Below are positions 5,752 through 48,873 of a stretch of 64,000 bases of DNA, one piece after another. The DNA is from an uncultured Eubacteriales bacterium (GTDB taxonomy: Bacteria > Bacillota > Clostridia > TANB77 > CAG-508). The position numbers were made by a program, and so were the translations under genes. Below the pieces are notes generated by a model. It was not told where the DNA came from, searched no databases, and saw nothing but the letters and a program-made list of their open reading frames with translations. The stretch is taken from contig CASEIZ010000008.1 in NCBI GenBank assembly GCA_949288185.1, forward strand, positions 1 through 64,000, given 5' to 3'. Position 1 is the first letter of the stretch; each line of letters opens with the position of its first letter.

Positions 5752-5807
5752 AAATCGGGAAATTGGGGACGGACTCATTTTTCCCGATTTATCCGTCCCC
5801 AATTTCC
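5752..5807. repeat. GGGGACG palindromic element, copy 1 (compact)
   Basis: Two mutually exclusive stems are visible: GGAAATTGGGGACGGA (5758-5773) with its exact complement at 5792-5807, and AAATCGGGAAA (5752-5762) with TTTCCCGATTT (5780-5790). It follows eno by 8 nt and may act as its 3' hairpin. Member of a family with eleven loci in the window. Confidence 0.85.
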
Positions 5808-5893: not shown

Positions 5894-6319
5894 ATGAAAA
5901 ATTTAATTGTGATAGAAGGAGAAAAAGACTATCAATATAATAATATACAAGAATTGGTTAAAGATTTTATACATCTGAATTATAATGAAATGTCCAAAGA
6001 AGAACAAATAAAAGAAATAGAAAAAAGAGCAATAGCTAATACGGTTAAAGATAATGTGGAAATGATAATGATAGATAAAGAACAAATCATATCCACAATA
6101 GACTTGAAAAATAAATTTATTATCAACGATGAATATACATATATATTGTCTATGTTAATATTTAACAAATTCGTTTTATTAGAAGAAATAAATGCTAATA
6201 TATTTGGCAAATATATGAAACAAAAACCTAAAAAAGGAAATTATATAATTCTTAACAAATTTGCAAATGAAATCATGCAAAAATACATAGAGGATAAAAG
6301 GAAGGAAAAAAATGGATGA
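5894..6319 (+). CDS. Hypothetical protein next to amidoligase
   Basis: A 141-residue, Lys/Ile/Glu-rich protein I do not recognise. It has no signal peptide or membrane span; it is predicted cytosolic and mostly helical. The start follows GGGAGAGACAT. Its last codons overlap the start of the amidoligase-family gene by 8 nt, so the two are translationally coupled and probably work together. Function unknown. Confidence 0.7.
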   Translation: MKNLIVIEGEKDYQYNNIQELVKDFIHLNYNEMSKEEQIKEIEKRAIANTVKDNVEMIMIDKEQIISTIDLKNKFIINDEYTYILSMLIFNKFVLLEEINANIFGKYMKQKPKKGNYIILNKFANEIMQKYIEDKRKEKNG

Positions 6320-7967
6320 TGAAAAAATACAAGAGTTAGATTACTTTGAAGGTGACGATTTGGGCACGCAACATAGCAAAAGTAAGATTATTTCTACGAT
6401 AAAAGATGACGACAAAAAAATTGCAACAATGAAGAAGCATATAAAAAATTCCACATTTCGACTAGAAATAATAAAAACGTTTCAATCTAGTCAAAAAAAG
6501 ATAGACAATTTATATTTAATAACAGATGATTTTGATAAAAAAATTTTATTAGAAGATACAGAAATAACAAATGATGAGCAAAGATTAATAATTGTTAAGG
6601 CATTTACAAAAGATTATAATAAAGTTCCATATATTCGAGAAATGAATGAGGATAATAGAGAAAAGTCTTTGCAATTCCTATCTATTGATGGAGCAAAAAA
6701 GGATGTTATTTTGACCTTGTCACTAGAAAGAAGATTAAAACATTTAGAAGATATAAGACCACATTTTTTTCAATATAAGGAAGAAATTATAGATTCTGTT
6801 CAAGATGATGAAATAAAGAAGAATTATCTAAGAGAAGTAAAAGACCAAGAAGTAATTACAAAAATTCTTATGAGTATAAAGGATGATACATATAAATTAG
6901 AAAAGATAGAAGAATTGGTCAAAGAAGAGTCAAACAGAGCTTTAGTCATTGCATCATTAAAAGATGATGAAATAAAATCAGAAAAATTACAAGAACTATT
7001 GGATAAAGATAATCAACTCCTTGTAAAAATTTCTTTTCAAGATCCCAAAAGATTAAAAGAAAATTTTTTCAACTCTAAAAGGACATATAAACAAATTGGA
7101 TTAGATAAAGAAATGTCAATAGGTATAGAAATTGAATCAGAGGGAGAAAGAGCAGAATTATTAAGAAAATTAAAAAGTTTTCTAAACGAAGATGATGAAA
7201 AACAAGAGAGAAAATGGGAAACAAAAGGTGATTTAAGTTTATCTGAACAAGATGGATTAGAGGTTGTTTCTCCTATATTAATAGACTCGAAAAAAGATGT
7301 GGAAGAAATTTATATGACATGTGAGATGCTAAGACAAGCAGGACAAGAGGCAAACGAAAAATGTGGTGCACATGTTCATATAGGAGCAGAATATTTAAAA
7401 AGTAAAGAAGCATATGCAAATTTACTTGAAATATGGGGAAATACAGAAAGAATCATGTATATTATCACGAATGAGCCAGGAAGCATACCAAGAGGAGGGA
7501 CTAGTCAACATGCAGAACCTATATCATATAAAATAGCTCAGGCAATTGAAGAAGGTAGTATAGAATTAAATGATGAACAAGATTTACAAACATTTATCAG
7601 TAGTTTACAAAAGATGCAAAACAATAAAGAAAGAAGTTTGAATTTATTAAATATTAATAATCAAAAAAATACAATTGAATTTAGAGTCGCAAATGGAACA
7701 ATTAATCCAGATGTTTGGATTGAAAATATAAAATTATTTGGAAGACTTGTGCAAAGAGCAGAGGAATTAGCAGAAATTGAACAAAAAAGTAATATCAATG
7801 AAGAAGAAAGACAACAATTAGAATTAAAAGAAAGGTTAAAAGAAGATATTCCTGAAAAAGAAAAATTAGAAATAGTATTAGACATATTATTTGAAGAGGA
7901 AGAAAAAGAGGTATATAGAGAACGATATAAAGAGAATTCTAATATATTAAAACGTTATCGGATATGA
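6312..7967 (+). CDS. Putative amidoligase with degenerate helical repeats
   Basis: The C-terminal half (about residues 262-500) matches the amidoligase_2 family, ATP-grasp-like/COOH-NH2 ligase relatives predicted to form amide or peptide tags. Motifs are GIEIE, 'KGDLSLSEQDGLEVVSP', CGAHVHIG and 'IEFRVANGT'. The first 240 residues hold imperfect units of 25-30 residues around 'DDDKKIATMKKHIKN' and 'SLKDDEIKSEKLQELL', which resemble repeat proteins common in Clostridia. The frame stops at 7967, but a matching continuation lies in another frame (7951-8148), so this copy is probably frameshifted near its 3' end. It is flanked by two unknown genes in the same orientation; the substrate cannot be told from sequence. 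Confidence 0.72.
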   Translation: MDDEKIQELDYFEGDDLGTQHSKSKIISTIKDDDKKIATMKKHIKNSTFRLEIIKTFQSSQKKIDNLYLITDDFDKKILLEDTEITNDEQRLIIVKAFTKDYNKVPYIREMNEDNREKSLQFLSIDGAKKDVILTLSLERRLKHLEDIRPHFFQYKEEIIDSVQDDEIKKNYLREVKDQEVITKILMSIKDDTYKLEKIEELVKEESNRALVIASLKDDEIKSEKLQELLDKDNQLLVKISFQDPKRLKENFFNSKRTYKQIGLDKEMSIGIEIESEGERAELLRKLKSFLNEDDEKQERKWETKGDLSLSEQDGLEVVSPILIDSKKDVEEIYMTCEMLRQAGQEANEKCGAHVHIGAEYLKSKEAYANLLEIWGNTERIMYIITNEPGSIPRGGTSQHAEPISYKIAQAIEEGSIELNDEQDLQTFISSLQKMQNNKERSLNLLNINNQKNTIEFRVANGTINPDVWIENIKLFGRLVQRAEELAEIEQKSNINEEERQQLELKERLKEDIPEKEKLEIVLDILFEEEEKEVYRERYKENSNILKRYRI

Positions 7968-8148
7968 AAATTTTCCTTTTCTTGATAGGGATTTTAAAAC
8001 AGTAGATTTTAGACATAAAAAAGAAGAATTTTATGAAGTAGCGGCACAGGAACGATATGGCAATATAGCTGAAGTAATGAGAGAAACAACAGAAGGATTA
8101 GAAGAATTACATAATCGAAAAGAAGATAGAAGTTGGGAGGAAAAATAA
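7951..8148 (+). pseudogene. Out-of-frame C-terminal extension of the amidoligase gene
   Basis: This frame is open from 7951 (after a TAA at 7948) to the TAA at 8146-8148 and reads GYENFPFLDRDFKTVDFRHK and on to a charged tail ending NRKEDRSWEEK. It has no start codon or binding site near its beginning, and joins the amidoligase frame through a +1 shift between 7951 and 7967. Its stop overlaps the ribosome binding site of the next gene, as expected of a true operon junction. Either a one-base indel (natural or sequencing) or recoding explains it. Confidence 0.6.
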
Positions 8149-8151
8149 AAC

Positions 8152-8592
8152 ATGGTTAGTCAAGAATATAGAGAATCGATTGTAGAGGTATTAGAAATAT
8201 TAAAATATTCTGATAATGAAATGATAGAAAAAATCCCCCAAACATTACTTGCATTTTGGGAAAGAAATCAATCAACTACATATAAACCCAATATAGATCA
8301 CCATAAAAAAATACAAGAGATGGAATTAAGACCAAAAACAAGAGCTATATTAACAATGTTGTATATCAATTATTTATGTGATGAAAAAGAAAAGAAGGAA
8401 ATGATTTTCATATTAAAGAAAAATGAACAAATATATCAAAATGATTTAAAAGAGAGATATAATGTAGAACAACTATTTAAAAAAGAAAAACAAAAAAAGC
8501 AAGAGCAAATAAAAAATGAAATAACAATGATTCCATATAAACCATCTTGGCTTGAAAAAATAAGAAATCATATAAAGGCAATGTTTAAATAA
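8152..8592 (+). CDS. Hypothetical protein, third gene of the amidoligase cluster
   Basis: A 146-residue, charged protein, not recognised. The N-terminal half ('RESIVEVLEILKYSDNEMIEKIPQ', split here from the rest, then 'RPKTRAILTMLYINYLCDEK') looks like a helical bundle; the last 50 residues are Lys-rich and end in an amphipathic segment. The binding site GGGAGG overlaps the end of the preceding reading frame, so it is co-transcribed with the amidoligase. No signal peptide is present. A partner or regulator of the amidoligase is possible but unproven. Confidence 0.68.
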   Translation: MVSQEYRESIVEVLEILKYSDNEMIEKIPQTLLAFWERNQSTTYKPNIDHHKKIQEMELRPKTRAILTMLYINYLCDEKEKKEMIFILKKNEQIYQNDLKERYNVEQLFKKEKQKKQEQIKNEITMIPYKPSWLEKIRNHIKAMFK

Positions 8593-8604: not shown

Positions 8605-8649
8605 AAACAAAAAATCTTAGAGCAAAATACCCTAAGATTTTTTTGTTTT
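8605..8649. terminator. Bidirectional terminator between convergent genes
   Basis: AACAAAAAATCTTAG pairs with CTAAGATTTTTTTGTT across a short loop, giving an A-run on one side and T-run on the other. It serves both the cluster ending at 8592 and the vWA gene ending at 8651. Confidence 0.85.
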
Positions 8650-30032: not shown

Positions 30033-30095
30033 TGTCCAATTGGGGACGTTTCTGTTTGGGACATTTTTAGAGATTTTGAGTCCGTCCCCAAATTA
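30033..30095. repeat. GGGGACG element, copy 4 (hybrid)
   Basis: The left part carries AATTGGGGACGTTTCTGTTT within TGTCC/GGGACA, the right part GAGTCCGTCCCCAAATT. The two halves come from different subtypes (as in copies 9/10 and copies 2/8), and only AATTGGGGACG/CGTCCCCAAATT pairs between them. Confidence 0.8.
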
Positions 30096-42078: not shown

Positions 42079-44247
<2,169 letters not shown>

Positions 44248-48677: not shown

Positions 48678-48873
48678 AAAAATCCCTGCGTAGTACGTAA
48701 GAGCATAATTTTTAGAACCAACAAATTATAAGAGGGGCTGATCTCTCGAATATGGCGTGCATGCTCACAGTATATAGTGAGAAGCCCATGAGTATTTAGG
48801 TAGGCACCCACCTGTTTTTAGGAGCAGGTCCTTAAAAATTAAAAAGCTGACGGCTAAGGCGGGGCTTTTTTTT
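48678..48873 (+). ncRNA. ssrS: 6S RNA
   Basis: A 196-nt non-coding RNA that binds sigma-A RNA polymerase by mimicking an open promoter. The ends pair (AAAAATCCCTGC with GCGGGGCTTTTT), and 'CCCTGCGTAGTACGTAAG' is like the start of 6S RNAs. The central TGCTCACAG...GTGAGAAGCCC and, further on, 'ACCTGTTTTTAGGAGCAGGT' with CCTTAAAAATT match the long bulged stem; the E. coli equivalent has GCTCGG...CCGAGAAGCC. The T-run at 48866-48873 ends transcription. No open reading frame of note covers it. Confidence 0.85.

Follow-up and report, generated by a model that had tools for sequence, protein, structure and literature searches.

The window (the whole stretch of 64,000 nucleotides analysed here) carries a conserved three-gene cassette that encodes an enzyme of the Amidoligase_2 family fused to helical repeats (P2) and two small partners, P1 and P3. 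The reading that we favour, with roughly even confidence, is that P3 is a cognate membrane adaptor on which its partner would dock, probably by the C-terminal tail, and that P1 is a private helper of the enzyme. The cassette would then consist of an ATP-dependent amide-bond-forming enzyme of the glutamine-synthetase-like class and two order-specific partners. The partner's C-terminal tail would be held by the helical domain of P3, whose flexible, basic amphipathic C-terminal helix would tether the complex to the inner membrane face or to a membrane-bound machine, so that the enzyme would act on a membrane-proximal substrate. P3 itself would be a device in general use in this bacterial order, with dozens of unrelated proteins as partners.

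The three co-directional ORFs (Table 1), the first two of which overlap by 8 nt, are flanked by an enolase gene on one side and a von Willebrand-domain gene on the other. In the neighbourhoods of relatives we found the orders P1-P2-P3, P2-P1-P3 and P2-P3-P1, or only P2-P3. As these genes are found together again elsewhere, in more than one genome and in several gene orders, the arrangement is not due to chance, and the co-directional set proposed by the first-pass annotation is a real, conserved cassette. Three loci (L020, L021, and L129) have the enolase and/or the von Willebrand-domain neighbour in common with the window. All three genes are under purifying selection (dN/dS 0.28 for P1, 0.21 for the body of P2, and 0.36 for P3, with enolase, at 0.05, as comparison gene). 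A literature search, which mostly did not extend to subscription papers, returned no description of the cassette, and we do not claim its absence in print. Two other elements were observed in the window: a palindrome with AATTGGGGACGGA-like arms that is repeated (5761-5804, 30081-30093, and 42106-42198; five matches with at most one mismatch vs. 0.02 expected), one copy sitting between enolase and P1, and a 6S RNA gene at 48680-48869 (Rfam RF00013, E 7e-16).

Table 1. Features of the amidoligase cassette (positions in the window).
Feature	Position	Strand	Description
P1	5894..6319	+	ORF, 141 aa; alpha/beta protein, putative companion dedicated to repeat-bearing amidoligases
P2	6312..7967	+	ORF, 551 aa; helical repeats and Amidoligase_2 domain
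P2 helical-repeat region, N-terminal (approximate)	6369..7076	+	Lag analysis, repeat profile, and alignment
P2 amidoligase domain	7101..7925	+	Conserved residues, which are (near-)invariant in 25 phage Amidoligase_2 proteins as well
Displaced +1 frame	7963..8148	+	61 codons and stop; encodes the C-terminal tail that homologues carry in frame
P3	8152..8592	+	ORF, 146 aa; order-restricted, paralogous, adaptor-like family
P3 C-terminal basic amphipathic helix	8536..8589	+	Residues 129-146, YKPSWLEKIRNHIKAMFK
Terminator-like palindrome 3' of the operon	8609..8643		Detected by consensus match alone, with the hit given on the - strand

Homologues of P2 were present in 14 of the 55 relatives searched, and a scan of GTDB genomes gave 154 confirmed matches, 80 of which were resolved into 77 loci from uncultured or metagenome-assembled bacteria, mostly Clostridia. 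Among these listed matches, 61 of the 66 Clostridia-type loci held P1 or P3 somewhere in the fetched locus (33 held P1 and 52 held P3), whereas none of the 11 Bacilli-type loci (those labelled Bacilli, Tenericutes, Mycoplasma, Mycoplasmatota, Erysipelotrichaceae or only 'bacterium') had either. Thus, the linkage of a repeat-fused amidoligase to two uncharacterised partners, which the first-pass annotation had expected of the homologues, is borne out for the Clostridia type and fails for the Bacilli type; all nine intact short forms of the enzyme keep P3 and lack P1. Neither partner lies within 3 kb of the amidoligase at 12 of the 62 loci having enough flank (one of these, L179, has both farther off), and most of these 12 retain a single long frame. 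Tandem or split amidoligase copies are common, as at L173, L179, L183, L199, L202, L216, L220, L223, L231, and L233, which suggests fast turnover or assembly errors.

Both partners are restricted to the order of the window. Across 191 genomes of this order the P2 profile matched in 41 (repeat-only proteins included), P1 in 12, and P3 in 154; an amidoligase was also present in 11 of the 12 P1-bearing genomes, the exception (G185) being a copy with a stop, and some of the P1-bearing amidoligases occur without P3. A further 248 genomes from elsewhere in the phylum contained neither P1 nor P3, and 16 of them had amidoligases, which were mostly short and distant. In a class-wide sample of 148, the P3 matches were likewise confined to members of the order. 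Repeat-bearing amidoligases, repeat-only proteins or P3 pairs also occupy, in different species, a recurrent hotspot (L022, L030, L032, L130, L133, L135, L137, and L156) that adjoins an 800-residue gene starting MAKKRRYKK, which we take to be FtsK/SpoIIIE-like.

The amidoligase assignment made for the second gene stands, as residues 271-476 of P2 match Pfam Amidoligase_2 (PF12224; E 2.1e-17, 64.3 bits vs. a cut-off of 22) and the protein matches PHROG 2443, 'amidoligase enzyme' (E 2.5e-22). The ligase part, residues 264-538, carries the motifs G271xE273xE275, W302, E317, S320-P321, C351-G-x-H354-x-H356, R394, N444, E456-F-R458, and R538. When ten proteins of the P2 group were compared with 25 phage Amidoligase_2 proteins, 21 near-invariant columns were common to both (G271, E273, E275, W302, E317, S320, P321, C351, G352, H354, H356, E379, R394, N444, T454-R458, G462, and R538), and the acidic, His, and Arg residues of the family (ExE, CGxHxH, and EFR) are all present in P2. 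Judged by its sequence, P2 is an Amidoligase_2 enzyme with an intact catalytic core; a search by sequence found no solved relative. A viral origin of the cassette was rejected, since P2 had no match among phage or plasmid records and only distant phage amidoligases in IMG/VR (best E 2e-11). Anti-phage defence was also rejected, as PADLOC gave no match for the three window proteins and five other P3 partners.

In front of the ligase, residues ~20-255 of P2 form degenerate helical repeats with units of ~26 residues. The unit is clear in the homologue L022 (identity 0.33 at a lag of 26 residues) and degenerate in the window copy, so the lag analysis confirms that the repeats noticed at the first reading are real. 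The N-terminus of the window copy is shorter than that of the 92%-identical relative L169 (551 vs. 639 aa). P1 tracks the repeat-bearing form, because it is missing from the short amidoligases (0 of 9 intact ones) and present with 24 of the 45 long ones (p 0.003, a guide only because the loci are related); the nine short loci were picked by hand, and in one of them the flank on one side is limited to 1,279 nt. The AF2 model of P1 is an alpha/beta protein (pLDDT 89.4, pTM 0.86). No curated family was matched above its cut-off, either with the single sequence or with the whole alignment, Foldseek returned nothing at E<=0.001 in PDB or viral models, and the best VIA-align Z was 2.7. We propose that P1 is a small folded helper that goes only with the repeat-bearing form of the enzyme and probably binds or assists its helical-repeat half.

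P3 also lacks a match to any curated family above its cut-off, with the single sequence or the whole alignment. One P3 alignment was built without 8 of the 54 homologues: five were short, two nearly duplicated others, and one had an odd C-terminus. In the AF2 model of P3 (pLDDT 83), residues 1-102 form a helical domain predicted with confidence, which is followed by a linker of low confidence and a helix at the end of the chain; Foldseek gave nothing at E<=0.001 in PDB and the best VIA-align Z was 4.9. The missing structural matches for P1 and P3 neither show nor exclude new folds. The Lys-rich tail pointed out by the first-pass annotation (mean K 21% over the last 50 residues of the amidoligase-linked P3s, 16% overall) is a C-terminal helix with the basic, amphipathic character typical of membrane targeting. 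For the window protein muH is 0.52 and D 1.81, the AF2 model places the helix at residues 133-144, and the family mean of muH is 0.58 vs. 0.36 in controls. Furthermore, 79% of 135 P3 tails pass the thresholds muH>0.5 and D>1.34, which we take as a lipid-binding criterion; the rates are 3% among 1376 other C-termini and 5% among 133 shuffled sequences. Such a helix could instead bind nucleic acid or another protein. It was found in none of 1686 non-P3 ORFs at E<0.1; one amidoligase without P1 or P3 nearby (L222, 7602-9065) ends in EKWYATFLNYIRSFFKKN, a P3-like helix with a domain score of 12.4 bits, below significance in that full scan.

The P3 family is strongly paralogous, with 13 matches in the genome of the window (one with an internal stop), nearly every one of which adjoins a different gene. 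Outside the amidoligase survey, 49 of 74 sampled P3 genes have a co-directional partner upstream at <=60 nt, 14 have one only downstream, and 11 have none. Grouping of the resulting 63 partners (phmmer links at E<1e-6) gave 44 unrelated families, few of which could be named by Pfam: a peptide deformylase with a HAD hydrolase, a CoaE-like kinase, and a metallophosphatase, together with weak matches to HopA1 (E 5e-4) and PARP (E 0.013). Five P3 neighbours (L156, L157, L161, L162, and L166) have helical repeats and no amidoligase. Two of the partners lie in the same genome as the window: L123:2758-4575, in which the deformylase domain is fused to the HAD hydrolase, and L126:1971-2687, which starts with a HGTNSNALYSILNNGI stretch and gives the weak PARP match, being possibly ADP-ribosyltransferase-like on this basis. 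The P3-amidoligase pairs are cognate, with some reassortment, as the amidoligase-linked P3s cluster on the tree (11 changes vs. 32-45 in 100 shuffles) and the nearest neighbour of 44 of 51 of them is also amidoligase-linked, against a base rate of 0.40; shared ancestry of the loci contributes to this clustering. A broader proposal, which we put forward tentatively as a little less probable than not, is that P3 is an order-wide docking system, with about a dozen paralogous membrane adaptors in the genome of the window, each of which would tether one unrelated enzyme by its C-terminal tail. The candidate clients would be the amidoligase, the deformylase-like, the kinase-like, and the possible ADP-ribosyltransferase-like proteins, and others.

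The promiscuity of P3 can be accommodated in other ways. P3 might be a secretion or loading chaperone that passes effector-like partners, the amidoligase among them, to an order-specific export or injection machine; one small protein beside many unrelated ones, the common C-terminal tails of the partners (see below), the order restriction, and the effector-like domains of some partners would fit this, but no secretion apparatus was identified, other partners look like housekeeping enzymes (the deformylase with HAD, the CoaE-like kinase, and the metallophosphatase), and the short amidoligases have no dispensable delivery domain except the tail, and we regard this explanation as unlikely. The HopA1 and PARP hints and the 44 partner families could also belong to toxin-antitoxin-like pairs, in which the partners, including the amidoligase, would be toxins, P3 a promiscuous antitoxin of the PanA kind, and P1 an extra regulator, and overlapping gene pairs and lineage-specific turnover are consistent with this. 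However, amidoligases lacking both P3 and P1 within 3 kb are common and mostly keep one long frame, which a lethal toxin would forbid; neither DUF4065 nor any other antitoxin model matches P3, which usually comes after the enzyme gene in a gene order that varies, and the conserved amphipathic tail would be left unexplained. Toxin-antitoxin pairs are therefore quite unlikely in our opinion. Finally, the first-pass annotation had speculated that the Lys-rich partner is the acceptor of the amide bonds, that is, that lysines of P3 (or else P1) receive amino acids or peptides from the amidoligase. P3 is in fact Lys-rich and cognate to its amidoligase, but its tail is a conserved amphipathic helix and no lysine is invariant among the amidoligase-linked P3s (even the column richest in lysine has 76% K, with A, L, M, Q, and R at the same position in other members). 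Their K content is close to that of the other P3s (0.162 vs. 0.151; in the last 50 residues 0.214 vs. 0.187), P3 stands beside many proteins other than amidoligases (44 unrelated families in the sample taken outside the amidoligase loci), and amidoligases exist without it, all of which makes an acceptor role very improbable.

For the membrane-adaptor reading, the C-terminal tail of the partner is the candidate docking element. The number of residues past the last catalytic motif has a median of 66 in 34 P3-linked amidoligases and of 31 in 8 P3-less ones of the Bacilli type (p 1.6e-4; counting ORFs longer than 250 aa that have the end motif), although tail length and P3 presence both depend on the clade. 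The same measure is 46.5 at P1-only loci (n=6) and 43 at the remaining loci (n=7), and the short-tailed exceptions among the P3-linked enzymes are L169 and L170 (12 residues each), which belong to the frameshifted clade of the window. Unrelated P3 partners have C-terminal tails in common: 19 pairs matched in the tail only, and 12 control draws yielded 1-5 such pairs. This signal came from the pairwise tail test only: a Gibbs motif search of 53 partner tails gave no separation from control tails (9.92 vs. 9.75 per sequence), the amidoligase tails did not rise above noise with a tail profile made from eight partners (L023 scored 1.4 bits), and a profile-profile comparison, whose column-shuffle control gave no values, found no match between the amidoligase tails and the tail motif of the other partners.

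In the window itself, P2 terminates at residue 551 through a frameshift caused by a one-base insertion that is common to the window, L169, and L170. The +1 frame continues the homologous tail (YENFPFLDRDFKTVDF...) up to a stop 3 nt before P3 and is open in all three; L171 (68% identical) is in frame at the insertion point and broken elsewhere. The displaced tail evolves faster than the body of P2, with a dN/dS of 0.49 (6.5 synonymous and 15.5 non-synonymous differences), above that of every body window (0.08-0.39), and as there is also no recognisable slippery site, a programmed frameshift is unlikely. Because the shared insertion displaces its tail, the window P2 may be partly uncoupled from P3. 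This could go further, the cassette being in decay here, with the docking tail removed and the enzyme heading for loss, as the displaced and faster-evolving tail and the split or fragmentary amidoligase copies at many other loci would suggest; against this, the body of P2, P1, and P3 remain under purifying selection, no catalytic residue has been lost, and all three copies still have an open tail frame, so we consider decay a possibility to be taken seriously but not the probable outcome. As the clade of the window retains P1 and P3 despite the out-of-frame tail, either docking by another surface or a decaying link is possible within the membrane-adaptor reading.

If the broader proposal of an order-wide docking system is true, P3 would represent a modular membrane-recruitment or effector-deployment system of uncultured gut Clostridia, of which the amidoligase with its private helper P1 would be one enzyme. 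Amidoligase_2 is a widespread family without a solved relative or assigned substrates as far as our searches show, and the cassette supplies an enzyme of this family with a partner of its own and suggests where it may act. Moreover, the P3 family is found in the majority of the genomes of a single order of gut bacteria, beside dozens of unrelated neighbours, with nothing matching it in the databases searched, and an adaptor function would offer a way to approach what dozens of uncharacterised proteins do in these uncultured bacteria.

Several known systems resemble parts of the cassette. P2 has the catalytic-type residues and the Pfam family in common with the Amidoligase_2 enzymes of phages and prophages (PF12224/PHROG 2443), which often stand beside a gamma-glutamyl cyclotransferase, but the cassette of the window is chromosomal, helical repeats stand in front of the ligase, and P1 and P3 replace the cyclotransferase. 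Neither P1 nor P3 matches gamma-glutamyl cyclotransferase/AIG2 by Pfam, and an ORF with YG[ST]N[LM] occurs within 2.5 kb in 15 of 66 phage neighbourhoods and anywhere in the locus in 3 of 77 related loci (among the matches listed). At L029:5695-7229, an ordinary amidoligase lies in a prophage-like context beside a gene with a YGSN motif, presumably gamma-glutamyl-cyclotransferase-like. Prophage amidoligases, some with this cyclotransferase, are listed as possible host-surface modifiers in a published study (PMC11318856). The hyperpromiscuous antitoxin PanA (DUF4065; PMC8832971) is like P3 a small protein family whose genes form two-gene units together with those of dozens of unrelated proteins; P3 differs in lacking DUF4065, in being limited to one order and usually downstream of its partner, and in ending in an amphipathic helix. 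In fact, a DUF4065 (Panacea) domain was matched in none of 47 P3 proteins. FtsA and MinD carry a short basic amphipathic membrane-targeting helix at the C-terminal end after a flexible linker, and the helix of P3 is likewise short, amphipathic, cationic, and at the very C-terminus behind a flexible linker. In FtsA and MinD, however, the helix is part of the acting protein, whereas in the cassette it is proposed to reside on a separate adaptor.
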